Of a stretch of DNA of 56,339 nt, positions 35,103 through 47,442 are shown in pieces (the stretch's first letter is position 1; every line of letters starts with the position of its first letter). The notes under the pieces were generated by a model that was not told the DNA's origin, ran no database searches, and saw nothing but the letters and a program-made list of their open reading frames with translations. The stretch comes from Candidatus Goldiibacteriota bacterium (lineage in GTDB: Bacteria > Oederibacteriota > PGYV01): positions 1 to 56,339 of the forward strand of contig JAFGWA010000086.1 in NCBI GenBank assembly GCA_016937715.1, written 5' to 3'. The position numbers were made by a program, and so were the translations under genes.

Positions 35103-35306
35103 CAGGGGGTTGGGTATATTTTTTTAGCCCGCGCCGCAAATTGGTATTCTTGTATCGAAACAAATTTGAAATTATCAGTCAGGTTAATTCATTGGCAACC
35201 GGGAACTTCCAGCAAATACGGATTTGCCGGCGTTGCATTAAATCCCTACTGCTGCATACATACGGTATTTACGCGGCACGCACTGAAAAAACACACCCAA
35301 CCCCTG
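35103..35306. mobile_element. 204-bp MITE-like element with long imperfect terminal inverted repeats (copy A)
   Basis: The element opens with CAGGGGGTTGGGTATATTTT and closes with AACACACCCAACCCCTG. The inverted similarity extends about 45 bases inward (GGGT-T-TTTTTT-AG-C-CG-GCCGC). A second copy at 45822-46023 is 202 bp and matches along its whole length by eye (shared TGAAATTAT, CAGGTTAATTCATTGGCAA, ATACGGATTTGCCG, GCATTAAA). It has no convincing ORF. It could be a non-autonomous transposon or a structured RNA; no flanking target duplication was obvious. Confidence 0.6.
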
Positions 35307-35535
35307 TTTTGTCTTGGTATTTATGAAGTGGTAGATGCGGGTCTTTCCCGGCCGTCGCAGCAAGAACACTACTATGACGGAGATGGCAGTCCGCGTCAGT
35401 TTTTATTTATGGGATATGGGATAAAAGGTTATTGGATAAAATCTTATGTTTTCCTTTTAAATAGATGGAACTTTTTTTCCGCTTGTTCTGTCCTATTACA
35501 CAAGGGAATGATAAATACAAAGCGGAGGAAAGCGC

Positions 35536-35622
35536 ATGAAACTGTCAAAGGCCACGGTAAATGTTGTTCTGTTCATGCTGTTTATTTTTTTTATTTCAGC
35601 GTCATTTGCTTTTGTGAAATAG
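35536..35622 (+). CDS. 28-residue small membrane protein, hypothetical
   Basis: A short gene begins at ATG 35536, six bases after the strong ribosome site GCGGAGGA, and reads MKLSKATVNVVLFMLFIFFI, then SASFAFVK, before TAG. It has a basic N end and one hydrophobic helix of about 18 residues, so it is either a single-pass membrane peptide or a bare signal peptide. It is followed about 35 bases later by a good intrinsic terminator, which supports a discrete transcription unit. No family is recognised. The ribosome site and terminator are the main support. Confidence 0.5.
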   Translation: MKLSKATVNVVLFMLFIFFISASFAFVK

Positions 35623-35653
35623 ATAATTAACAGGGGTCGGGGAGATGTTTTGA

Positions 35654-35695
35654 AAAGGGCAGGGAAATTAAATTTTCTCTGCCCTTTTTGTTTTA
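35654..35695 (+). terminator. Intrinsic terminator after the 28-aa gene
   Basis: The arms AAAGGGCAGGGAAA and TTTTCTCTGCCCTTT pair with one G-T/mismatch step around an A/T-rich loop, and the stem runs directly into TTTTTGTTTT. It separates the small gene from the tRNA-Leu promoter. Confidence 0.75.
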
Positions 35696-35736
35696 AATCC
35701 CTGTCTTTCGCGGTTAATCACGGTAAATTTATACGC

Positions 35737-35765
35737 TTTACACAGGGTTAATTATGTGGTAAATC
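35737..35765 (+). promoter_or_regulatory. Probable tRNA-Leu promoter
   Basis: TTTACA (35737-35742) and TAAATC (35760-35765) are 17 bases apart. The predicted start near 35772 would give a 5' leader of about 16 bases before the tRNA. The -10 box is weaker than consensus; an overlapping TATATC (35769) is an alternative. Confidence 0.45.
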
Positions 35766-35787
35766 TTTATATCCCGTTTATATTTGT

Positions 35788-35873
35788 GCGGATGTGGCGG
35801 AATGGCAGACGCGCTAGTTTCAGGTACTAGTACCCGCAAGGGTGTGGGGGTTCAACTCCCCCCATCCGCACCA
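35788..35873 (+). tRNA. tRNA-Leu (anticodon CAG)
   Basis: An 86-base class II tRNA. The acceptor arms GCGGATG and CATCCGC pair fully and CCA is encoded. The anticodon stem CTAGT/ACTAG holds the loop TTCAGGT with anticodon CAG at 35821-35823. The long variable arm (ACCCGCAAGGGT) and the T arm (GGGGGTTCAACTCCCCC) are typical of tRNA-Leu. It reads CUG codons. Confidence 0.95.
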
Positions 35874-36150
35874 AATAAAAACCGAGGGACGGATGCACGG
35901 ATGGTCCGAGGGACGGAAGTAAAATCGGCGGCACGGCACTAAAACCCGAGGGACGGATGCACAGAGGGACAGAGGGATGGAAGTAAAGTCGGCGGTACGG
36001 CACTAAAACCTAATGGACGGATGCACAGAGGGATGGAAGTAAACCCGAAAATATCAAAAACAAATCTAAAAATATAAAACTAGCGCAATGTATTGCGCCT
36101 CTTCATTATTAAATTTATTTGATTTTAATGTAGAGACGAAATAAATTTCG
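35874..36150. repeat. Tandem degenerate GAGGGACGGATGCACAG repeats and palindromes
   Basis: Directly after the tRNA are three degenerate copies (about 35878, 35951 and 36013) of a unit containing GAGGGACGGATGCAC, GGGA-GGAAGTAAA and CGGCGG-ACGGCACTAAAAC, spaced about 60-75 bases apart. The stretch ends with the palindromes GCGCAATGTATTGCGC (36084-36099) and the GAGACGAAAT hairpin (36133-36154, followed by GTTTTTG). Related strings occur after 28983 and, inverted, at 36300, 42340, 45700 and 46200. I see no gene. Confidence 0.65.
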
Positions 36151-36184
36151 TCTCGTTTTTGTTTGTGTTTAGTATTAAAGGTAT

Positions 36185-36277
36185 GGTAGACGCGGGTCTT
36201 TCCCGAAGCTATGGCGGAGAAGGCAGTCCGCGTTTTCTTTTAATTCAACTGCCGCACCTTAAAAGGTGCGCCTACCA
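36185..36277. repeat. Pair of REP-like palindromes in opposite orientation
   Basis: GGTAGACGCGGGTCTTTCCC at 36185 is followed by AGGCAGTCCGCGTTTTC, and at 36246-36277 a reversed member (CAACTGCCGCACC...GGTGCGCCTACCA) faces it. The flanks CAACTGCC and CTACCA are the reverse complement of the GGTAG and GGCAGTTG flanks of other members. The two may fold together. Confidence 0.6.
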
Positions 36278-36299
36278 GATCTAAATCAAGACGTCAAAC

Positions 36300-36434
36300 C
36301 TCCGATCTTACTTCCGACCCTCCGACCCTCCGACCTTCCGTCCCTCCGACCTTCCGACCTTCCGACCTTCCGAGCTGCCGAGCTGCCGAGCTGCCGAGCT
36401 GCCGAGCTGCCGAGCTGCCGAGCTGCCGAGCTGC
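36300..36434. repeat. Octamer tandem array (CCGACCTT then CGAGCTGC)
   Basis: About eight degenerate octamers of the type CCGACCCT/CCGACCTT/CCGTCCCT (36300-36370) change abruptly into eight exact copies of CGAGCTGC (36371-36434). Single or reversed relatives (GGCAGCTCGG, GAGGGACGG) lie after 28983 and after the tRNA. The exact copies point to recent slippage expansion. An overlapping 61-codon open frame is only a by-product of the repeat. Confidence 0.9.
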
Positions 36435-36544
36435 CGTCTTTTATTGACTAAACAATAAAAATTGAATATAATAATAAAGGGAGTTTGTTTATAAGTAAAT
36501 GTAATTCCTGACAAGATATTTATATTTGTACGGGGAGAAAATAA

Positions 36545-38821
36545 ATGATTAAAAAGAATTTTACAGGGAAAATTTTATCTTTATTTATATTTATTCTTTT
36601 TTCTGCAGCTGCATACGCTGATAATCCTAAAATATTAAGTTATTCAATGGTGCCAACCAATCCGGGATTTGACGAGCCTTTTACGGTAACGGTTGAAGTC
36701 TGTCTTGGTGATAATACTGATAACGATATCCTTATTGCAGTTCACGACCAAAGCTCAAGAAAACCGCCTTCCACATTCGGTCAGTGGTTTCTTGTAAGCA
36801 ATGAAGGTATAGGTGTTCAGACATTAGGACCTGCTTCTTCATCCGGCGATAGGTTTGGCGATAATACCACAATGGGAGACGGACCTGTTTACGGCGACGT
36901 AATGGACTGCACAGACTGCGAAGGCGGAGAAGGGCAGAAAAAAACGGTTGTTTATAACCTTGTTATGCCTTCTGCCGATGATTTTTCAGGATGTAATCAG
37001 ACAAGTTTATATTTAAGTATAGTTGTGGAAAAAGCCCCGCTTAACAAAGATCATTGGGTAACACCTACGGCGCCCGCGTGCGGCGCCATAATGCTTCCTT
37101 TTAGTATTCCTGTTCCTCCCCCTTATCTTGATGTGCATAAAGCCGCGGAAGGTGTTGTTACAAAAGACGGCGACCAGCTTGTTTACACTATTAATTATAA
37201 ATATGCCAACGGCGGCCCTGTGACCATTACAGATGCTGTCCCCGCGGGAAGCCACCTTAGGTTTGTAAAAGCGGGGCCTGCGTTAAGGCTTTCAAGCGCA
37301 CCTGCTGTGGGTGCCACATCAGGCACGGTTACGTGGACGCTGCCGTCAAAGGCAGGCGTTCCCGGATATACAGAAGGAACTTTGTGGATAGTTTATGAAC
37401 TAAACGGGGATCATGATGTTACTCCGGCAACAATAGATAATACTGTAAACGCGGCTATGGGGACTTTGACTGACTCTTCAACGGTTTCAATTACAACAGG
37501 CCAGGCAACGCTGAACCTTGAAAAATCCCAAAGCGCGGATGTGTTGAATCAGGGAGACACAATAACCTATTATCTTGAATGGGAAGTAAACGGGATGGCT
37601 GTAAAAAATTACCATAATTTTGACGAGTTTACAGACGGTTCGGAATACTATGCAACCGCGCCTACAGGGTGGAGGCACATACCTGAAGACGGTTATAATG
37701 GAAGATGGCGTATGATTGATGATTGTGACACTGGCGACAACTATCTTCAGGGCAACAGATGGGATCCGACAGCCAGCGGGCATTATCCGTCGCTTGTTTT
37801 AGATGACGGAAGCGGAACCGATACAAGCGACCAGTTCTGCGAAGGTATGATAGTGACCGATGTAATTATTCAGGATGAAGGCTACAGCGGCGCGGACGCG
37901 ATGGTTATTATAAGGACAAACGGCCAGACCGGCACCGCGGCAAGGTCAATAGGCGTCGGTATTTCAATTGATGAGACGCCAGGCAACTTTTTTGTTCAAA
38001 AAGTTTATCCTGATATTCCGGCTGAAGTAAATCCGCCAAGAATGGGCCCTGTGTACGCAAGGCAGTGGTACAGGGTAAGGATAAATGTTATAAACGAAGC
38101 AACAGGGCAGAGGATTCAGGCTAAAGTCTGGCCAAGGGGCGACGCGGAGCCTGCAGGCTGGGATATTGATTATCTTGACACGTCAATGTACACCGCGGAT
38201 TGGGACTGCAGGGGAAGCGGGACTTATAATGACTGGCGCCCGGGGGTGGGCAATCAGGGCGGAGATGATGCGGCTTATCCTGTAAGCGACGGGTATGATA
38301 ATTTTGCGGTATATGTTCCCAAAAGCGTCTCTGACGGCAGGGTAATTGATGATATTCCCACGGGAGTCAACAGCCCTGTATGTTCGGGATGCACAGGCGG
38401 AGCTCCCTTTACGTGGAATCTTCCGGCCGGCATTTCAAATGACGCGGGTTCATTTACCTGGAGAGGTATTGTTGGAACCTGCGCCAACATAACAAACGTT
38501 GCAAGGATGGAAAGTACTAATAATGAGCCTATTGTATCAAATGAAACTATACTGCATGTGGGATGTATTGAAGCGTTGTCCGTCACTAAAACGGCAAACC
38601 CGAATGTAATAAAAGTGGGCGATACTGTTACATTTACAATATGCTGGGAAAATACAGGCGAACTTCCGTCAAATATAGTTATCAGAGACCCGATTCCGCC
38701 AAGGACCACTGTTATCAGTAACGGCGGGGGAACCGTCAGTGCCGGAACTATCAGATGGACCGTGAATAATTCACTGCCCGGAAGCGACGGGTGTTTTACC
38801 TGGACGGGAAGAATAGATTAA
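36545..38821 (+). CDS. Secreted DUF11-repeat protein without stalk or sorting domain
   Basis: The 758-residue protein starts at ATG 36545 after GGGGAGAAAATAA and has a signal peptide ending AAAYA. The first ~170 residues form an unassigned beta-rich domain. DUF11 domains (Ig-like, TIGR01451 type) open at DGDQLVYTINYKYANGG (near residue 215), QGDTITYYLEWEVNG (~335) and VGDTVTFTICWENTG (~705). The second is interrupted by an insert of roughly 230 residues (NFDEFTDGSEYYATAPTGWR, then a lectin-like sandwich with QWYRVRINVINEATGQRIQA) before it closes at SFTWRGIVGTCANITNVARM. The third stops at FTWTGRID, before its last strands, so the protein may have been cut short. It is followed in the same frame, after TAA and five codons, by the next gene. 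DUF11 proteins are usually surface spacers or adhesins; no catalytic domain is visible. Confidence 0.75.
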   Translation: MIKKNFTGKILSLFIFILFSAAAYADNPKILSYSMVPTNPGFDEPFTVTVEVCLGDNTDNDILIAVHDQSSRKPPSTFGQWFLVSNEGIGVQTLGPASSSGDRFGDNTTMGDGPVYGDVMDCTDCEGGEGQKKTVVYNLVMPSADDFSGCNQTSLYLSIVVEKAPLNKDHWVTPTAPACGAIMLPFSIPVPPPYLDVHKAAEGVVTKDGDQLVYTINYKYANGGPVTITDAVPAGSHLRFVKAGPALRLSSAPAVGATSGTVTWTLPSKAGVPGYTEGTLWIVYELNGDHDVTPATIDNTVNAAMGTLTDSSTVSITTGQATLNLEKSQSADVLNQGDTITYYLEWEVNGMAVKNYHNFDEFTDGSEYYATAPTGWRHIPEDGYNGRWRMIDDCDTGDNYLQGNRWDPTASGHYPSLVLDDGSGTDTSDQFCEGMIVTDVIIQDEGYSGADAMVIIRTNGQTGTAARSIGVGISIDETPGNFFVQKVYPDIPAEVNPPRMGPVYARQWYRVRINVINEATGQRIQAKVWPRGDAEPAGWDIDYLDTSMYTADWDCRGSGTYNDWRPGVGNQGGDDAAYPVSDGYDNFAVYVPKSVSDGRVIDDIPTGVNSPVCSGCTGGAPFTWNLPAGISNDAGSFTWRGIVGTCANITNVARMESTNNEPIVSNETILHVGCIEALSVTKTANPNVIKVGDTVTFTICWENTGELPSNIVIRDPIPPRTTVISNGGGTVSAGTIRWTVNNSLPGSDGCFTWTGRID

Positions 38822-38836
38822 AGGCAGGGTGATGAA

Positions 38837-41800
38837 GTGTTTAAAAGAAGCGGTATAAAAGCGCGCAGAGTGTTTTTGCTTGCCACGGCATTTATTGCGT
38901 TTTTTTCCGCGTACGCTTCAGCGGGCCTTAATATGCAGATTGCGGTATCAAATAATCCGGCAACTAATGACAGGATGAATATAGAAATATTTATTTATAA
39001 TACCGGAACAACGCCGGTGGATATAACAGGGTTATATGTCAGGGCGTGGTTTAACGGCACATTTACCCCTGCGGCTTCATGGTACAACCGTGACCTTCAG
39101 AATCCAAATCTTAGCAACGCGGTAACCGTAAATTCAACAACTGCCGTAATTCCGGAATGTATAGAAGCGGCTGACAGGATTGCAAACAGGTATATACAGC
39201 TTAACTTAAGCGCGGCTTCACAGCTTCAGCCCGGGCAAAATATACGGTTAAACGGCGCGATAAGCGGGGCTAATCCTTTTGATCCGGTGAATGATGATTA
39301 TTCAGGACACGGAGTGCTTGTAAAAGATGATTATAAATGGTTTGTTTTATATGACACGCTTGGTGTTGTTCTTGAAGAAACAGCGCCGGGAGTTACTGAT
39401 CCGGATACAGGAGCGGAGCCGTGTTCCATTCCGACTGCAACACCCACAAATACGTGGGAATCCGTAACAAATATTGTATGGATTGAAAACGCGCTTGGCA
39501 CACCTTTTATGACATCTGTTGCCACTGTGCAGATTCAGCCGCCGACACCGACGTTTACAAGGACTTCAACAAATTCAGCCACGCCTACAAGGACAAATAC
39601 CCAGACGGTTACATACACGCCCACAAGGTCAAGCACAATGACTGTTACCGCGTCTCCGACTGCCACTGTTACTTTTACAGCTACGGGTACAGTGACTTTT
39701 ACGGCTACCAGCACATCCACCGCCACCAGGACATCTACTGCCACATCAACTGTAACTTTTACGGCGACAGGGACGGTTACTTTTACCGCAACCCGCACTG
39801 CCACCGGAACGTCAACAGTAACCGTTACGCGTACTGTCACATCTACAAGTACGGCGACTCCTTTTAATACATTTACAAGTACTGCCACGGCAACGCCGAC
39901 AAGTACTGTCACAATAACAGCCACGCCTTCGGCAACAGTAACAGTCACGCGCACATCAACGCCTACTGCCACCACCACCATTACTTATACTGCCACTCCC
40001 ACAGTCACGTTCACGGCTACGGTTACTGTTACAAGGACCAACACGTCAACAAGAACAGCGACGCCGACAGCTACAAATACATTCTTTGACACAATGACCA
40101 ACACAAGGACGGTTACCCCTACCGCGACAATAACTGTTACTGCAACGGCAACTTCCACAGTCACGTTCACGCGTACAGCCACGGACACAAATACAAATAC
40201 CAGTACGCCCACCGATACAAATACCGCGACATTTACCAATACGCCCACGGATACATATACAAGCACATATACAAGGACGTTTACAGATACGCCCACAGAA
40301 ACCAGCACGCCAACCAACACAAATACATTCACCCATACCAATACTGTTCCGCCGTCTTCCACCGCCACAGACACATTCACTCAGACTTATACAAGGACTT
40401 ATACCAATACCCCAACAGAGACGTTTACTTTTACAAATACCTATACGCCCACAGACACAAGGACAAACACGCACACCAGGACGCATACAAATACGCATAC
40501 GCCCACTGAAATTTTTACGGATACCAATACGCCTACAGATACTTATACGCCCACATATACAAGAACGTTTACAAATACCCATACGGATACAAACACTCCG
40601 ACAAATACCAACACGCCCACGGACACTTACACGCCTACGTTTACAAGGACATTTACAAACACAAGGACCAACACAAACACTTATACAAATACCAATACGC
40701 CCACTGACACATACACGCCGACATTCACAAGGACATTTACAAATACAAGGACCAATACAAACACGCATACAAATACTAATACGCCCACTGACACATACAC
40801 GCCGACATTCACAAGGACATTTACAAATACAAGGACCAACACAAACACTTTCACAAATACCAATACGCCCACTGACACATACACGCCTACATTTACAAGG
40901 ACGTTTACAAACACAAGAACCAATACAAATACTTATACAAACACCAATACGCCGACTGACACATACACGCCAACGCATACAAGAACCTTTACTCATACAA
41001 GGACTCATACAAATACAAGGACCAATACAAATACTTATACAAACACCAATACGCCCACTGATACATACACGCCTACGCACACAAGGACGCATACGAATAC
41101 GAGAACCAATACAAACACTTTCACAAACACCAATACGCCTACTGACACATTCACTCCTACGCATACAAGGACCTTTACGCATACCAGAACGCATACAAAC
41201 ACAAGGACGAACACAAATACTTACACAAACACCAATACGCCCACTGATACATACACGCCCACCCATACACGGACGCAAACAAACACAAGGACTTATACAA
41301 ATACGCCCACAGTTACTAATACTTTCACGCATACTTTCACAAGGACCAATACGCGTACATTCACGAACACAAGGACGTTTACTAATACAAGGACATATAC
41401 TTTCACTCCTACATTTACACGAACGTTTACCCCCACGGTTACCAATACGTTTACAAAGACCTATACTTATTCGCATACACCCACGTTTACGAATACTTTC
41501 ACGGCAACATTTACCGCCACACCAATCCCCACTCCCGCCATGCTTGCGGTAGCTTTGTCTGTAACGGGCCAGAATCCCAGGCCGGGCGCGGAGATTAAAT
41601 ACAGGATGGAAATAATTAACCTTACAGGCTCGCCGGCTTATAATCTGCAGATAACAGCGCAGCTTATTGACGGCATAAGTTTTAAAAACACGGATTTCAG
41701 GACGGCATCAGATCCGGTTCAGACAGGAAATACCGTTGTGTTTATGCTTGACCCGTCTTATGTGCTGCCCGCGGGAGGGCAGATAACCCTTGATTATACA

Positions 41801-42196
41801 GTTACAATTAACAGAATTACGGCTGATTATATTGAAAGCAGCGTTGCAGTTAAATGGAATGATTCAGTCTTTACAAACACACAGAATCCGGACACGGCAT
41901 ATTCCAATACTGTGGTGTATCCTTTAATCGCTCCTGTGGTATTCCCGAATCCTGTCAGCATATCAAAGGTAAAAGACGGGCAGATGAAGGTAAACAATAT
42001 GGTGCCGCAGTCGGTCTTTGTAATTTATACGATTACCGGGGAACACGTAATTTCGTTAAAAGCGGAAAATACAAAAATATACTGGGATATGAAGAACGGG
42101 AACGGGACAAGGGTATCGCCCGGAATATACCTATATATAATCAGGAATAATTATTCAAAACAGCTGATAAAAGGGAAGATGTTCATTCAAAATTAA
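38837..42196 (+). CDS. Surface protein: CBM3-like head, ~660-residue Thr stalk, DUF11-like domain, sorting domain
   Basis: The start GTG 38837 follows GGGTGAT 15 bases after the upstream stop; the signal peptide ends YASA. The head (residues ~32-190) is a CBM3-like beta-sandwich related to the domains in the giant protein (FIYNTGTTPVDITGLYVRAW; NPFDPVNDDYSGHG; KWFVLYD). A Thr-alternating stalk (39538-41541) with 28-residue higher-order repeats follows, then a DUF11-like domain (GAEIKYRMEIINLTGSPAYN) and a T9SS-like C-terminal sorting domain (FPNPVSISKVKDGQMKVNN, later ITGEHVISLKAEN, SPGIYLYIIRNN, GKMFIQN). Residues 1-190 would be displayed at the tip to bind cellulose or similar glycan. The last ~230 residues closely match those of the protein at 42533. 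Stalk length is likely variable between strains. Confidence 0.85.
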   Translation: MFKRSGIKARRVFLLATAFIAFFSAYASAGLNMQIAVSNNPATNDRMNIEIFIYNTGTTPVDITGLYVRAWFNGTFTPAASWYNRDLQNPNLSNAVTVNSTTAVIPECIEAADRIANRYIQLNLSAASQLQPGQNIRLNGAISGANPFDPVNDDYSGHGVLVKDDYKWFVLYDTLGVVLEETAPGVTDPDTGAEPCSIPTATPTNTWESVTNIVWIENALGTPFMTSVATVQIQPPTPTFTRTSTNSATPTRTNTQTVTYTPTRSSTMTVTASPTATVTFTATGTVTFTATSTSTATRTSTATSTVTFTATGTVTFTATRTATGTSTVTVTRTVTSTSTATPFNTFTSTATATPTSTVTITATPSATVTVTRTSTPTATTTITYTATPTVTFTATVTVTRTNTSTRTATPTATNTFFDTMTNTRTVTPTATITVTATATSTVTFTRTATDTNTNTSTPTDTNTATFTNTPTDTYTSTYTRTFTDTPTETSTPTNTNTFTHTNTVPPSSTATDTFTQTYTRTYTNTPTETFTFTNTYTPTDTRTNTHTRTHTNTHTPTEIFTDTNTPTDTYTPTYTRTFTNTHTDTNTPTNTNTPTDTYTPTFTRTFTNTRTNTNTYTNTNTPTDTYTPTFTRTFTNTRTNTNTHTNTNTPTDTYTPTFTRTFTNTRTNTNTFTNTNTPTDTYTPTFTRTFTNTRTNTNTYTNTNTPTDTYTPTHTRTFTHTRTHTNTRTNTNTYTNTNTPTDTYTPTHTRTHTNTRTNTNTFTNTNTPTDTFTPTHTRTFTHTRTHTNTRTNTNTYTNTNTPTDTYTPTHTRTQTNTRTYTNTPTVTNTFTHTFTRTNTRTFTNTRTFTNTRTYTFTPTFTRTFTPTVTNTFTKTYTYSHTPTFTNTFTATFTATPIPTPAMLAVALSVTGQNPRPGAEIKYRMEIINLTGSPAYNLQITAQLIDGISFKNTDFRTASDPVQTGNTVVFMLDPSYVLPAGGQITLDYTVTINRITADYIESSVAVKWNDSVFTNTQNPDTAYSNTVVYPLIAPVVFPNPVSISKVKDGQMKVNNMVPQSVFVIYTITGEHVISLKAENTKIYWDMKNGNGTRVSPGIYLYIIRNNYSKQLIKGKMFIQN
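39538..41541 (+). repeat. (Thr-X)n stalk with 84-bp higher-order repeats
   Basis: Roughly 660 residues with Thr at almost every second position. The first third is TAT/TVT-rich. From about 40600 to 41290 an 84-bp (28-residue) unit, TNTNTPTDTYTPTFTRTFTN plus TRTNTNTY, repeats at least six times, with the spacing checked as 84 bp between 40685 and 40769. Some units carry an inserted THTRTHTNTR block. A break at VPPSSTATD (about 40345) is shared with the stalk at 43561. Confidence 0.9.
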
Positions 42197-42532
42197 TAAA
42201 AAGTATTTAGTACGCATCTAGGCTTGTATCTGGCCTCCGCTACTCAACCTTACCGGGCTTGGGTATATGCAGTGGTAGGCGCGTCCTTTTAGGGCGCGGC
42301 AGTTGAATTGATATTTGATTTTGTTTCCTTCTCTCTGTCCTTCGTGTTTGTCTTGACGGTTACGCTTCTGCTTAACTGCCTATAGCTTAAGCCGCTGCTC
42401 TTGTAACCTCCGTCCCTTTTTGATTAAACGTTAAATCAAAATACCATGCCGTTTTACATTATGAAATAGACTTCCGAAATGCCTTGTGAGATAATATATT
42501 TAAAGGAATTTATTAATATAAAAGAGGTCGGT
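42197..42532. other. Intergenic region with dispersed repeats, no gene
   Basis: The gap holds CCGGGCTTGGGTATAT (42253-42268), which resembles the first bases of the 204-bp element but lacks its remainder. It also holds a REP-like hairpin (42272-42307: GGTAGGCGCGTCCTTTTAGG, GCGCGGCAGTTGAATT), CTCTGTCCTTCGTG text repeats, and CTTAACTGCCTATAGCTTAA (42371-42390), which recurs at 45741 and 46181. No promoter stood out before the gene at 42533. Confidence 0.65.
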
Positions 42533-45500
42533 ATGAAATTTATGCTTAAAAAAGTTCTTTTGGCAGCCCTTTTTTATATTGTCGCATTTAATCTATATTC
42601 CGCCACAATGACAAGCGCCACATTATGCGTAAATGGCGATGACATCACTGATGTCTGGATTAACGGCCATTCTATGGGTTCTTTTAATTATGTGAACTGG
42701 GATTCAACAGACCCCGTACCCTGTGTCAGTGTTCCGATTGCGTATCTTAATGCCACCGGCGGAAACGTAATTGCGGCTTTAAACAGGGACACGGGAATGG
42801 GTGAAATTTATACGTCATGGGTTCTTGATGTAACTTACAGCGACGGGCAGCACGCTTATATGTCATCTGATGACGGGGTAAAACTTAATACATCCACCTT
42901 TGACTGCTCTTCTCCGCCTGCTGCGGACTGGTACCAGCCCGCTTATGACCATTCTTCGTGGGGTAATGCAGTTGTTGTTACGGGGACCACATGGGGCAAG
43001 CAGATGTTTGACCCGGGAACGGGTTTAAGGGTAAAGATGCGATCGTATTCCTCCACTGCGTCAAATTCCGGGCATCCGTGCCTTTATATGAGGCAGGGAT
43101 TCACACTTGTGCCGGAAGACCCTCCGCCTCCGCCGAATTTTACGCTTGTAAAATCCATGAGCAAAGTATCTGACATTACTACAGAGGATGTAACAGTTAC
43201 TTTTCAGATATGCAATACAGGAGGGTTTACGGAAGACCCGGTTGTAATTCATGATATTGCGGACATGGTGGTGCCGTCCGCCGCCGCGCTTGATTTTCAG
43301 TTTGTTTACACGGGGGTTAATGACACAAGCACAGGCCCTAATTTTGATCAGGCACCCGCTGACGGGCATCTTACGGATATTACTTTTCCTATGGGATTTG
43401 AAGGCAATAAATGTCTGAATGTAAGTTTTGTCATCAAAGATTATTCCTGGCAGATAAGCCAGGCGCAGGATAACTGTGCTACGGCAGATAATTACGGGCG
43501 TGTGGTATGGAACGGGGGCAGCGCAAATTCCAACACCGTTGAATTTGATAAAAGGTGCTGGACAAACACGCCCACGTTTACGCAGACTTTTACACCCACC
43601 GCGACTTTTACCAGAACTTTTACGTATACGTATACGCTGACGCCTACAAGGACACCCACGTTTACCCAGACGCCCACAAGGACATTTACAAACACAAATT
43701 CGCCTACATATACCAGGACATATACCGCCACCTTTACAAACACAAACACAAATACCGCGACGTTTACAAGGACGCCCACGTATACAAATTCGCCCACTAA
43801 TACCTTTACAAACACCAACAGCCCCACGTATACAATGACTAATACGAATACTTTCACGCGGACTTTTACCAATACTTTTACAAACACGCATACTTTTACA
43901 AATACACCCACAAACACCTTTACACACACGCAGACGTTTACCCGTACTTATACAAATACTTTCACAGAGACTTACACTGTTGTGCCGTCAGCCACGGCCA
44001 CCAATACTTTTACCAGCACGCATACAAGGACTTATACATACACCCATACAAACACCAACACGCCCACCAGTACAAATACTTTTACCGAAACATATACGGT
44101 TGTGCCTTCGGCCACGGCCACTAATACGTTCACAAATACAAATACAAGGACTTATACATACACCCATACCAATACCAACACCCCCACAAATACAAATACG
44201 TTTACGGAAACATACACGGTAGTGCCTTCTGCCACCGTCACCAATACGTTCACAAATACAAATACAAGAACCAATACAAACACGCCCACAAACACAAATA
44301 CATTTACCCATACCAATACGGTCCCGCCTTCTTCCACGGTTACAAATACATTTACAAACACAAATACCAGGACTTATACAAATACCCCGACCGAAACCTT
44401 TACTTTTACAAACACCTATACATCCACTGATACGCGCACGCATACTCCCACAAGGACAAACACAAACACATATACGGCAACGACAATTTTTACAAATACT
44501 TTCACCCATACAAACACATACACCCCCACTTTCACAAGGACGTTTACAAATACCCGTACTTACACAAACACGCCCACAGATACCAATACTCCCACAAACA
44601 CATATACCCCGACATACACGCGGACTTTTACAAATACCCGCACATATACCAACACGCCCACCGATACCAATACTCCCACAAATACATATACCCCGACATA
44701 CACGCGGACTTTTACAAACACCCGCACCCATACAAACACGCCGACCGTTACAAACACTTTCACGCAGACATATACCAGGACTTTTACCAGGACGTTTACA
44801 CACACGCGCACTCATACTTTTACCCGTACGCATACAAATACCGCCACGAATACCAATACATTTACCCCTACAGTGACAAATACTTTCACGAAAACTTTCA
44901 CGAATACGGTAACTTATACTTTTACCAACACGTTTACCCGCACGCATACGCACACGCCTGTTCCCACTCCCGCGGTGCTTGAAGTGACGCTCTCAGTCAC
45001 CGGGGAAAACCCGCTTGTAGGTTCAGAGATAAAGTACAGGATGGTTGTAACAAACAAGTCCGGGTCGCCGGCATATAACATAACTATTAATGACGTATTG
45101 CCGCCGGGGACAAGTTTCAGGGGGACGGACTTCAGGACGGCGTCTGACCCCGTGTTATCCGGCGGTACTGTCACTTTTGTCCTTGACCCGTCCTATGTGC
45201 TTGAAGCGGGTAAACAGCTTGTGCTTGAATTCAGCCTGACGCTGGATGCAATACATTCGGATTCCATAGATAACAGCGTGGCGGTAAACTGGAATGACTC
45301 TGTGTATAACGCGGGACAGAACCCAAATACCGCTTTTTCTGCGATAGTCAAATACCCGCTAAGGGAGCCTATAGTTTTCCCGAATCCTTTCAGCAAATCA
45401 GCGGCAAAAGACGGGATGCTTAAGGTGGCCAACATGGTGCCGCAGTCTGTGTTTGTGGTTTACACTATCACCGGAGAACACGTAAGGTCAATAAAAGCCG

Positions 45501-45631
45501 AAAGTACATTTATAACCTGGGACGTAAAAAACGGTAACGGGGCTGATGTTTCCCCGGGAATTTATATGTATATGATAAGAAACAATTATTCAAAACAGCT
45601 GATTACGGGGAAAATGTTCATTCAGAATTAG
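42533..45631 (+). CDS. Surface protein: beta-sandwich head, DUF11, ~465-residue Thr stalk, DUF11-like domain, sorting domain
   Basis: ATG 42533 is preferred because it follows AGAGGTCGG and gives a signal peptide (MKFMLKKVLLAALFYIVAFN, ending LYSA); the frame is open further upstream to 42479. The head (residues ~25-190) has alternating strands with WINGHSMGSFNYVNW and HAYMSSDDGVKL and looks like a galactose-binding-type jelly roll of the kind found in glycan-binding proteins, but I cannot name a family. A DUF11-type domain (TTEDVTVTFQICNTGGFTED), a Thr stalk (43561-44973), a second DUF11-like domain (GSEIKYRMVVTNKSGSPAYN) and a sorting domain (FPNPFSKSAAKDGMLKVAN, SPGIYMYMIRNN, GKMFIQN) follow. 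The C-terminal module is a close paralogue of that ending at 42196. Role inferred: surface display of a glycan-binding head. Confidence 0.8.
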   Translation: MKFMLKKVLLAALFYIVAFNLYSATMTSATLCVNGDDITDVWINGHSMGSFNYVNWDSTDPVPCVSVPIAYLNATGGNVIAALNRDTGMGEIYTSWVLDVTYSDGQHAYMSSDDGVKLNTSTFDCSSPPAADWYQPAYDHSSWGNAVVVTGTTWGKQMFDPGTGLRVKMRSYSSTASNSGHPCLYMRQGFTLVPEDPPPPPNFTLVKSMSKVSDITTEDVTVTFQICNTGGFTEDPVVIHDIADMVVPSAAALDFQFVYTGVNDTSTGPNFDQAPADGHLTDITFPMGFEGNKCLNVSFVIKDYSWQISQAQDNCATADNYGRVVWNGGSANSNTVEFDKRCWTNTPTFTQTFTPTATFTRTFTYTYTLTPTRTPTFTQTPTRTFTNTNSPTYTRTYTATFTNTNTNTATFTRTPTYTNSPTNTFTNTNSPTYTMTNTNTFTRTFTNTFTNTHTFTNTPTNTFTHTQTFTRTYTNTFTETYTVVPSATATNTFTSTHTRTYTYTHTNTNTPTSTNTFTETYTVVPSATATNTFTNTNTRTYTYTHTNTNTPTNTNTFTETYTVVPSATVTNTFTNTNTRTNTNTPTNTNTFTHTNTVPPSSTVTNTFTNTNTRTYTNTPTETFTFTNTYTSTDTRTHTPTRTNTNTYTATTIFTNTFTHTNTYTPTFTRTFTNTRTYTNTPTDTNTPTNTYTPTYTRTFTNTRTYTNTPTDTNTPTNTYTPTYTRTFTNTRTHTNTPTVTNTFTQTYTRTFTRTFTHTRTHTFTRTHTNTATNTNTFTPTVTNTFTKTFTNTVTYTFTNTFTRTHTHTPVPTPAVLEVTLSVTGENPLVGSEIKYRMVVTNKSGSPAYNITINDVLPPGTSFRGTDFRTASDPVLSGGTVTFVLDPSYVLEAGKQLVLEFSLTLDAIHSDSIDNSVAVNWNDSVYNAGQNPNTAFSAIVKYPLREPIVFPNPFSKSAAKDGMLKVANMVPQSVFVVYTITGEHVRSIKAESTFITWDVKNGNGADVSPGIYMYMIRNNYSKQLITGKMFIQN
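43561..44973 (+). repeat. (Thr-X)n stalk with 120-bp higher-order repeats
   Basis: About 465 residues of Thr alternating with Phe, Tyr, Asn, Arg, Pro and His. Between about 43950 and 44330 a 120-bp (40-residue) unit containing TFTETYTVVPSATATNTFTN repeats three times, with the VVPSA break at 43980, 44100 and 44220. Later a 60-residue-scale TYTPTYTRTFTNTRTYTNTP unit repeats. The break VPPSSTVTN is shared with the stalk at 39538. Confidence 0.9.
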
Positions 45632-45821
45632 ATGAACTTGGTTTTGTATTGGTAGCCGCACCTTTTAAGGTGCGGCAGTTGATTTATTATTTGTCTCTGT
45701 CTCTCTGTTCCTCTTGCTTGTCTTGATGTTTACGTTTCTGCTTAACTGCCTATAGTTTAAGCCGCTGTTCTTGTAATTTCTGTCCTTCTGTGCATCCGTG
45801 CCTAGGTCACTTGGTTTTTAC
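45632..45821. repeat. Intergenic REP-like hairpin and text-like repeats
   Basis: A perfect 22-bp palindrome with half-site GCCGCACCTTT is at 45655-45676, flanked by GGTA and AGTTGATTTA. The strings TCTGTCTCTCTGTTCCTC and GCTTAACTGCCTATAGTTTA (45741-45760) and CTGTGCATCCGTGCC repeat motifs found after 42300 and 46130. No coding sequence is seen. Confidence 0.65.
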
Positions 45822-46023
45822 CGGGGCTGGGTATATTTTTTCAGTACGCGCCGCAAATTGGTATCCTTGTATCCAAATAAACTTGAAATTATTACTCAGG
45901 TTAATTCATTGGCAATCGTAAGCCCGCGGCACATACGGATTTGCCGCCGCAGCATTAAACCGTCCCTGCCGTATACACAGTATGTTAGGGCGGCGCATAC
46001 TGAAAAAACACACCCAACCCCTG
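45822..46023. mobile_element. 202-bp MITE-like element (copy B)
   Basis: This is the second copy of the element at 35103-35306, in the same orientation. The terminal inverted repeats are better preserved: CGGGGCTGGGTATATTTTTT and then CAGTACGCGCCGC on the left, and the reverse complement of GCGGCGCATACTGAAAAAAC then ACACCCAACCCCTG on the right, with about five mismatches in 32. The interior is diverged from copy A but collinear. An open frame across it is fortuitous. Confidence 0.6.
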
Positions 46024-46314
46024 TATTGATTTAGATTTACGAAGCGGCAGACGCGCCTATGTGATTATGATTTTTATGCCTTGGTAGGCGCGTCCCTTTA
46101 GAGCGCGGCAGTTGATTTATTATTTGTTTTATCCTCTGTCCCTATGTCCTTTGTGTTTGTTTTGACGTTTTTCGCTTCTGCTTAACTGCCTATAGCTTAA
46201 GCCGCTGCTCTTGTAACTTCCGTCCCTCCGTCCCTCCAATCTATTTTTCTTTAACCATTTCAACTGCAATATGATAAAATTAACTTATTATTCTATATTA
46301 ATAAAGGCGGGACG
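46024..46314. other. Leader region of the riboflavin genes with repeats
   Basis: It contains a REP-like hairpin (46082-46116), CTTAACTGCCTATAGCTTAA (46181-46200), TTCCGTCCCTCCGTCCCTCC text repeats and an A/T-rich stretch (46250-46305) that may hold the ribD promoter, although no clear -35 is visible. I looked for the conserved FMN-riboswitch segments expected ahead of rib genes and saw none. Confidence 0.5.
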
Positions 46315-47442
46315 ATGAAAGATAATAAAGGCGTATTTTACATGAAAACAGCGCTGGAACTTGCGGCAAAAGCAGCGGGCCATACATCTCCTAATCCTTT
46401 GGTCGGGTGTGTTATTGTAAAGTCCGGCAGGATTATAGGGGAGGGGTATCATAAAAAAGCAGGGCTTCCTCACGCCGAAATAGAGGCGCTAAAGCAGGCA
46501 AGGGAAAAAGCGAAAGGCGCGGTATTATACGTTAACCTTGAACCATGCTCCCATTTTGGAAAGACGCCGCCGTGCGCCGATGCTATAATAAGAGCAGGGG
46601 TAAAAGAAGTGGTGTGTGCCATGAAAGACCCCAACCCGCTGGTGTCAGGCAAAGGTTTTAATAAACTTAAAAAAGCCGGGATAAAAGTAAGAAATGGAGT
46701 GCTTCATGGCGAAGCCCTTGCCTTAAACAGAATTTTTATAAAAAATATAACCTTAGAAAAGCCGTATGTAATAATGAAAGCGGCTGTTTCCACGGACGGA
46801 AAAATGGCTTTAAAGAACGGGGAATCTAAATGGATAACTTCCGCGCCGGCAAGGCAGGAGGCGCAGAAACTGCGTTTAATGTGCGACGCGATACTTGTGG
46901 GGATTAATACGGTTATAAATGATAATCCCTTTTTAGACTGCAGAATTGACAGGCGTAAAAAAATTAAAAAAATAATTCTGGATACAAACGGCAGGATGCC
47001 GGAAAAAGGCAATATATATTTAAACAGCGCGCCTGAAGATATTTATGTGGCGGTAAAAAGAATGGAAGAAAGAAAAGCTGAAAGGCTGATAAAAAAGGGC
47101 ATTAATATTATATATCTTAAAGGAAATGAAGAAAAGCCGGCACCCGATAAAGTGCTGTCAGAACTTTTCTGCAGGGGGATAAGAAGCGTTCTTCTGGAAG
47201 GCGGCGGAACGGTGATAGCGTCTTTTCTTAAAGAACGTCTTATAGACGAAGCTAATATACATATTGCTCCTTTGATAATGGGAAATGACGCAATACCTTT
47301 TGCGGGTCAGTTTGGAATTGAAAGGATGCAGGATGTACTAAAGTTAAAGGATCACACCGTTAAACAGTGCGGGCCGGATGTCTTGATTTCCGGTGAAATT
47401 CAATATCCGGAGGTTAAAAGTGTTCAGCGGGATAGTCTTTGA
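46315..47442 (+). CDS. ribD: Riboflavin biosynthesis deaminase/reductase RibD
   Basis: The 375-residue bifunctional enzyme carries out the second and third steps of riboflavin synthesis: deamination of diaminohydroxyphosphoribosylaminopyrimidine and NADPH-dependent reduction of the ribosyl group. The N-terminal deaminase domain (to ~145) has the zinc site HAE (His53, Glu55) and PCSHFGKTPPC (Cys78, Cys87). The reductase domain starts at KPYVIMKAAVSTDGKMA and contains the LRLMCDAILVGINTVINDNP and EGGGTVIASFL motifs. The start ATG 46315 follows GGCGGGACG. The C end overlaps ribE by 23 bases. Length is normal for the family. Confidence 0.97.
   Translation: MKDNKGVFYMKTALELAAKAAGHTSPNPLVGCVIVKSGRIIGEGYHKKAGLPHAEIEALKQAREKAKGAVLYVNLEPCSHFGKTPPCADAIIRAGVKEVVCAMKDPNPLVSGKGFNKLKKAGIKVRNGVLHGEALALNRIFIKNITLEKPYVIMKAAVSTDGKMALKNGESKWITSAPARQEAQKLRLMCDAILVGINTVINDNPFLDCRIDRRKKIKKIILDTNGRMPEKGNIYLNSAPEDIYVAVKRMEERKAERLIKKGINIIYLKGNEEKPAPDKVLSELFCRGIRSVLLEGGGTVIASFLKERLIDEANIHIAPLIMGNDAIPFAGQFGIERMQDVLKLKDHTVKQCGPDVLISGEIQYPEVKSVQRDSL
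47409..47414 (+). promoter_or_regulatory. Shine-Dalgarno GGAGGT that decides the ribE start
   Basis: GGAGGT lies five bases before GTG 47420. The GTG gives the usual family N terminus (M-FSGIV), whereas the ATG at 47393 would add nine residues not found in riboflavin synthases. The site is inside the ribD coding region. Confidence 0.75.

Follow-up and report, generated by a model that had tools for sequence, protein, structure and literature searches.

A genus-restricted family of 204-bp intergenic repeats with long inverted ends in Candidatus Goldiibacteriota, with MITE-like features

In a genome of Candidatus Goldiibacteriota, two collinear segments of about 203 bp begin with a sequence and end with its near complement. 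This raises the question of whether they are a non-autonomous mobile element or a structured transcript, which were the two readings offered by the original prediction. The window that we analyzed (56,339 nucleotides) lies on contig 86 of an assembly of 2.59 Mb in 124 contigs, which we will call G000. We compared it to two genomes of the same genus (G001 and G002). The relevant features of the window are:

35103..35306, plus strand: copy A of the 204-bp element, with 86% identity to the consensus of the family
35103..35137, plus strand: left inverted end of copy A, CAGGGGGTTGGGTATATTTTTTTAG...
35273..35306, plus strand: right inverted end of copy A, ...CACTGAAAAAACACACCCAACCCCTG
42253..42268, plus strand: left-end motif of the element, CCGGGCTTGGGTATAT, fused to a REP hairpin
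42275..42302, plus strand: GTAG-type REP hairpin GTAGGCGCGTCCTTTTAGGGCGCGGCAG, a separate repeat family
45821..46023, plus strand: copy B of the 204-bp element, which G001 lacks at the orthologous locus
45821..45854, plus strand: left inverted end of copy B
45990..46023, plus strand: right inverted end of copy B

Copies A and B are 81% identical over 205 positions (E = 1.5e-50), and within each copy the left end can be matched to the right end over 32-36 bp with 81-86% identity, which is far above chance. The two predicted elements with inverted ends are thus real, and the interior blocks said to be common to them (GTTAATTCATTGGCAA and ATACGGATTTGCCG) are both found in each copy. Their interiors had been described as diverged, which is too simple: many interior columns are near-invariant. 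The left-end fragment at 42253-42268 also exists, but it is not mere debris. It runs into the GTAG REP hairpin at 42275-42302, and this junction recurs at about 11 places in the examined DNA of G000 and G001, so the piece is part of another composite repeat.

The original prediction turned on whether the genome contains further copies and whether the two arms have changed together. Both were found (for the arms, see below). With copy B as the query, we identified at least 42 matching places in its own genome, most of them full length, with 75-88% identity. The two congeners had 33 and 37 matches. Across the DNA that we examined from the three genomes, there were 37, 21, and 22 full-length copies and 15, 20, and 15 partial ones. 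We did not find the element in 38 other genomes from the order and phylum, and there was no match among 50,697 phages and 72,556 plasmids. The 22-base right end was absent from IMG/VR, and in a species-level genome collection it was found in only one MAG (isolate USDV_metabat.159), although that search may omit records of the window's own genome. Judging from these searches, and as far as they reach, the family is confined to one bacterial genus. Numerous contigs stop inside copies (for instance, at the ends of C4, C7, C9, and C14 of G001), as expected of repeats, and contig C1 of G001 (349 kb) has 72 kb that reads N.

The length of the element is fixed at about 204 bp, and full copies have terminal inverted repeats of 24-34 bp. 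The mean pairwise identity of 65 copies is 78%. On the plus strand, the aligned copies begin with CAGGGnTTGGGTATATTTTTTCAG and end with CTGAAAAAACACACCCAACCCCTG; pairing of the ends extends into CGCGCCGC and GCGGCGCG, for a total of 34 pairs. In the 133-bp interior, numerous invariant columns lie beside numerous columns that vary freely. Some copies have internal deletions and retain both ends (C1:168368, C1:333666, and C4:350323 in G001). Other variants carry a 66-bp unit, either inserted after GCCG at position 129 of the element or in place of positions 33-129. This hairpin-rich unit is also dispersed in its own right. It sits after GCCG, and two of the GCCG sites that it follows lie inside the element; where it is at the first of them, the segment up to the second site is gone. 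The unit is found at:

L217 7549-7616, L096 6456-6521, L214 7397-7462, and the ends of C52 and C79 of G000: 66-bp unit GGTTGGAGCGAGCCTGCGAAGCGGAAATCCCCGGGCTTGCGCGAGTTTACGAGCGCAAGTGTTAGGGGAC

We considered whether the element encodes a protein. None of the copies examined had an open reading frame between a pair of ends; most copies have stops in every frame, and there was no match to Pfam. The best frame is on the minus strand; in 42 of 81 copies, its last 46 codons are free of stops. It ends with ...LMPRRQIRMCRGFTIANELTYLLISSLFGYKNTNLRRVLKKYTQAL, and a stop triplet comes next in 58 of 78 copies, at the conserved TTA of the flank. The synonymous share of changes in this frame (0.32, versus 0.29 expected) is only slightly in excess. 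Given these codon statistics, the many closed copies, and the empty Pfam search, we rejected a present coding function. The frame may have a decayed coding origin.

The terminal stem shows compensatory changes. In an alignment of 34 sequences, 95.7% of the cells of the stem can pair on the minus strand, and 15 stem pairs have changed on both sides, as compared to 4.8 in shuffles and 1-3 in slid controls. None of 500 shuffles reached 15. On the plus strand, the share is just 87.2%: G-U on the minus strand, and hence A-C on the plus strand, is seen in 104 cells, and the reverse in 8. Counted by column, ten lean towards the minus strand and two towards the plus strand (p = 0.04). The asymmetry thus depends on about ten columns, and some of these may each reflect one ancestral event. 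The plus strand has a positive G-C skew, from which one would expect mutation to run the other way. The likelier cause of the G-U asymmetry is therefore selection on a minus-strand hairpin, whether RNA or single-stranded DNA, although the independent columns are few.

RNAalifold gave z-scores of -14.6 on the minus strand and -5.2 on the plus strand. For the interior, the z-scores of the two strands (0.4 and -1.2) do not indicate a conserved fold, and its most strongly covarying columns are not nested pairs. The element has no match in Rfam, whose only hit in the window is a tRNA. Thus, the structured half of the original prediction holds for the 34 pairs of the terminal stem and does not extend to the 133-nt interior.

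The copies are found almost only between genes, at a median of about 215 bp from the gene on either side. In most cases, octamers such as YGTCCCTC and YGTGCATC form an array to the left that ends with GGYTTTA, and the TTA that immediately precedes the element is conserved at 91%, 86%, and 82%. The right flank is T-rich and is often followed by TCGAATTT phrases. Some copies have unique flanks instead (G000 C14:46883, C74:9940, and C56:5552). More broadly, the gaps between genes are mosaics of short phrase families: the YGTCCCTC/YGTGCATC octamers, AAGCMTCY, TCGAATTT, ATGGGAT, GTAG REPs, and the 204-bp element. Such mosaics are seen at 35380-36060 and 45660-46240 of the window and in most of the intergenic regions of all three genomes.

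When we compared orthologous gaps, we found that the coding edges are kept, mostly at 82-91% nucleotide identity, while the middle is often a different repeat mosaic. For instance, at the locus in G001 that is orthologous to that of copy B, a REP is in the place of the element. Among about 15 comparable loci in G000 and G001, roughly nine have the element or a part of it in common, and at least 6 lack it in G001.

Of 70 copies, 50 lie between two genes that run in the same direction as the copy, 15 are in convergent gaps, 4 are in divergent gaps, and 1 runs against both of its neighbors. The ratio of 50:1 in co-directional gaps might seem to link the element to transcription. But in the two contigs that we examined, 88% of the genes are on one strand and just 3 of 141 co-directional gaps are on the minor strand, so beyond a shared strand preference this bias adds no information. 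The excess of convergent over divergent gaps is another matter: 15:4 for the element as against 17:28 for the genome (p = 0.005), where the 15:4 includes some copies that are orthologous to, or tandem duplicates of, one another. This is most simply explained by avoidance of promoters.

How might the element have spread? We searched for target-site duplications with lengths of 2-10 and found none: the left and right flanks of copies matched each other no better than did shuffled pairs from different copies. Intergenic regions are replaced as entire mosaics, and for this reason no orthologous locus offered a clean empty site. Nor did any of the transposase types that we searched for (DDE_Tnp_1, DDE_3, IS256, rve, and Y1) fit. 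DDE_Tnp_1 and DDE_3 transposases are absent from the three genomes. A few IS256- and rve-type transposases are present in one or both congeners only, and they are flanked by other ends or by no matching ends. Of the types that we tested, Y1 transposases are the only ones in all three genomes, with two genes in each. The shorter ones (155 and 169 amino acids) have GTAG REPs on their flanks, and the longer ones (324-342 amino acids) are flanked by long inverted repeats of three other sequences. The ends of the element do not match at any of the six genes. We did not find an autonomous relative with the same ends; some assembly gaps lie inside copies and might hide one.

The Y1 loci of this genus fit the REPtrons and TIRtrons that were described by Di Nocera and co-workers (2013; PMC3733652). 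At L101 (1309-2231) and L102 (1329-1928), the genes for 155- and 169-amino-acid Y1 proteins lie between inverted GTAG REP hairpins, which is the arrangement of a REPtron. At L098 (1327-2442) and L099 (883-1992), the Y1 transposases have 324-329 amino acids and a DnaA-C-like C-terminal region, and they are flanked by self-complementary 41-bp repeats (TAAACGCCCTGTCTGGGGTCTGACCCCAGACAGGGCGTTTA). Judging from its ends, the element belongs to none of these REPtrons or TIRtrons.

We also asked if the resident copies are under selection. Nine orthologous pairs of copies differ at 8-15% of positions, as compared to 34% at four-fold sites of the neighboring genes, and in most pairs the changes are mainly in columns that also vary among paralogs (3.3% versus 23%). 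Such column-restricted changes speak against inert insertions, unless the copies exchange sequence. Three observations kept us from claiming purifying selection. Around clean orthologs, the noncoding flanks that can be aligned have diverged no more than the element itself. In an old copy with unique flanks (C56 of G000 and C2 of G001), the changes fall evenly on conserved and variable columns, as neutral decay would give. And in six pairs, 60 of the 90 differences are between states that are common among paralogs. Exchange between copies accounts for the pattern equally well, so we make no claim of constraint; concerted exchange, rather than selection in place, may be behind it.

Overall, the family is probably a non-autonomous, MITE-like mobile element of the same kind as ERIC, NEMIS, and bcr1. 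The mobile half of the original prediction is supported by the copy number, the terminal inverted repeats, the fixed length, the deletion forms that keep their ends, and presence or absence at orthologous loci. The features that would clinch it, namely a target-site duplication, a transposase with the same ends, and a clean empty site, were all sought and none was found. Among the hallmarks of a MITE, the terminal inverted repeats, a small size with no coding capacity, and dispersed polymorphic copies are present, while a target-site duplication and an autonomous element with the same ends were not found. The spread is MITE-like, and the element does not join the inverted-repeat transposons that have a known mover. 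On the best reading, the mover is lost, absent, or unrecognized. It would have been an enzyme, provided in trans, that recognized the paired ends and placed the element next to TTTTA, in T-rich DNA that is full of repeats and lies downstream of genes. The long stem formed by the ends would have been preserved for its action as a hairpin of the single minus strand, in DNA or RNA. Resident copies would then decay and recombine with each other and with neighboring repeats, and they would be tolerated mainly in convergent and co-directional gaps. The near-invariant interior columns count against a mobile element, which offers no explanation for them.

Those columns, which are numerous, speak for the main rival, that the copies are a dispersed family of structured RNAs or RNA elements on the minus strand, with a 34-bp terminal helix and kept by selection. 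The better pairing of the minus strand, its G-U cells (104 versus 8 A-C), its far lower RNAalifold score, and a G-C skew that would give the opposite asymmetry all fit this idea. We nevertheless consider it possible but doubtful. The interior has neither a conserved fold nor covarying nested pairs, there is no match in Rfam, and the asymmetry comes down to those ten or so columns. Also, as the flanking genes run on the other (plus) strand, transcription of the minus strand would call for a separate promoter, and the flanks have no terminator-like run of T after the 3' end of the minus strand. A broader statement, that these are genus-specific structured RNAs or single-strand DNA hairpins of the minus strand which spread without target duplication or a known transposase and are under sequence constraint at their sites, is unlikely.

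Alternatively, a Y1 (HUH) transposase of the RAYT/TIRYT type could have moved the element in the form of single-stranded DNA, as with REPs and TIR repeats. This would suit the presence of Y1 genes in all three genomes, the lack of a target duplication, the short TTA that is conserved on one side only, and a stem that is kept on one strand, and repeats with long inverted ends have been described beside such enzymes (PMC3733652). The copies on a contig nearly all point in the same direction, along the major gene strand, which would fit too, but gene strand and replication strand are inseparable when 88% of genes are on one strand. Moreover, the six Y1 genes have other ends (GTAG REPs or three unrelated inverted repeats), and going by the conserved target flank the plus strand would be active, while the hairpin evidence favors the minus strand. 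We judge a Y1 mover to be quite unlikely. It is very improbable that the element no longer transposes and is copied passively as intergenic mosaics recombine or duplicate. Many copies do have neighboring repeats that are common to both sides, there are tandem units of element plus flank (G002 C18 and C97) and chimeras of the left end with a REP, and there are orthologous loci at which the element is no closer to its counterpart than to paralogs. Against this, some copies lie in unique flanks, and both ends are retained in the derivatives, although passive copying would not demand it.

Returning to the MITE-like reading, this is a new genus-restricted family of small intergenic repeats with inverted ends, of the general kind of ERIC, NEMIS, YPAL, and bcr1 (PMC2229807, PMC2267715, PMC6542083). 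ERIC (or RU-1) is a short intergenic imperfect palindrome of 127 bp from enterobacteria (PMC2229807, PMC2267715). The element resembles it, as compared by description, in having tens of copies per genome, TA-like termini, size variants, and a position next to genes; it differs in its length (204 versus 127 bp), in that no target duplication was detected, and in having a stem that is limited to the terminal 34 bp. The Correia or NEMIS repeats of Neisseria have terminal inverted repeats of about 24 bp and can form a long RNA stem (PMC2229807). The inverted ends of about 24 bp, the intergenic position, and the size variants are shared, but NEMIS is listed with target duplications and TA termini, whereas no duplication was found for the element and its three genomes have no DDE_3. 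The bcr1 element of the Bacillus cereus group falls in a class of 100-400 bp and has about 39 copies per genome on average, mobile features, and a TTTAT motif (PMC6542083). Both families are restricted to a lineage and have similar copy numbers; bcr1 has one or more repetitions of TTTAT, while the element has TTTTA on the left side only. The TIR repeats of TIRYT/RAYT systems (PMC3733652) are, like the element, moderately abundant repeats with long inverted ends in genomes that encode Y1 transposases, but the element's ends match none of those around the Y1 genes of this genus, and its consensus ends lack the GGGGWSAS motif. Finally, RAYT-associated REPs (GTAG palindromes) are found in the same intergenic regions and are also biased to one strand, but the element has no GTAG tag, is far longer, and is a separate family.

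ERIC, NEMIS, and bcr1 are old puzzles: the movers of many such repeats, and any benefit to the cell, are unclear. Here, three congeneric genomes with about 80 full copies, loci that are shared and loci that are not, and a stem signal that distinguishes the strands allow mobility, single-strand action, and selection to be addressed directly. The strand-biased terminal stem and the unexplained invariant interior seem most worth following. The family also marks a genus in which the gaps between genes are rebuilt out of short repeats of several families, a matter of consequence for assembly and annotation.

Two other features of the window deserve mention. Downstream of copy B, a riboflavin gene encoding RibD (Pfam PF01872 and PF00383) starts at 46315 and runs to 47442; Rfam did not call an FMN riboswitch in the window. 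And at 3199-24096 there is a single open frame of 6965 amino acids, with further very long frames downstream of it (1545, 1857, 1119, and 1050 amino acids).
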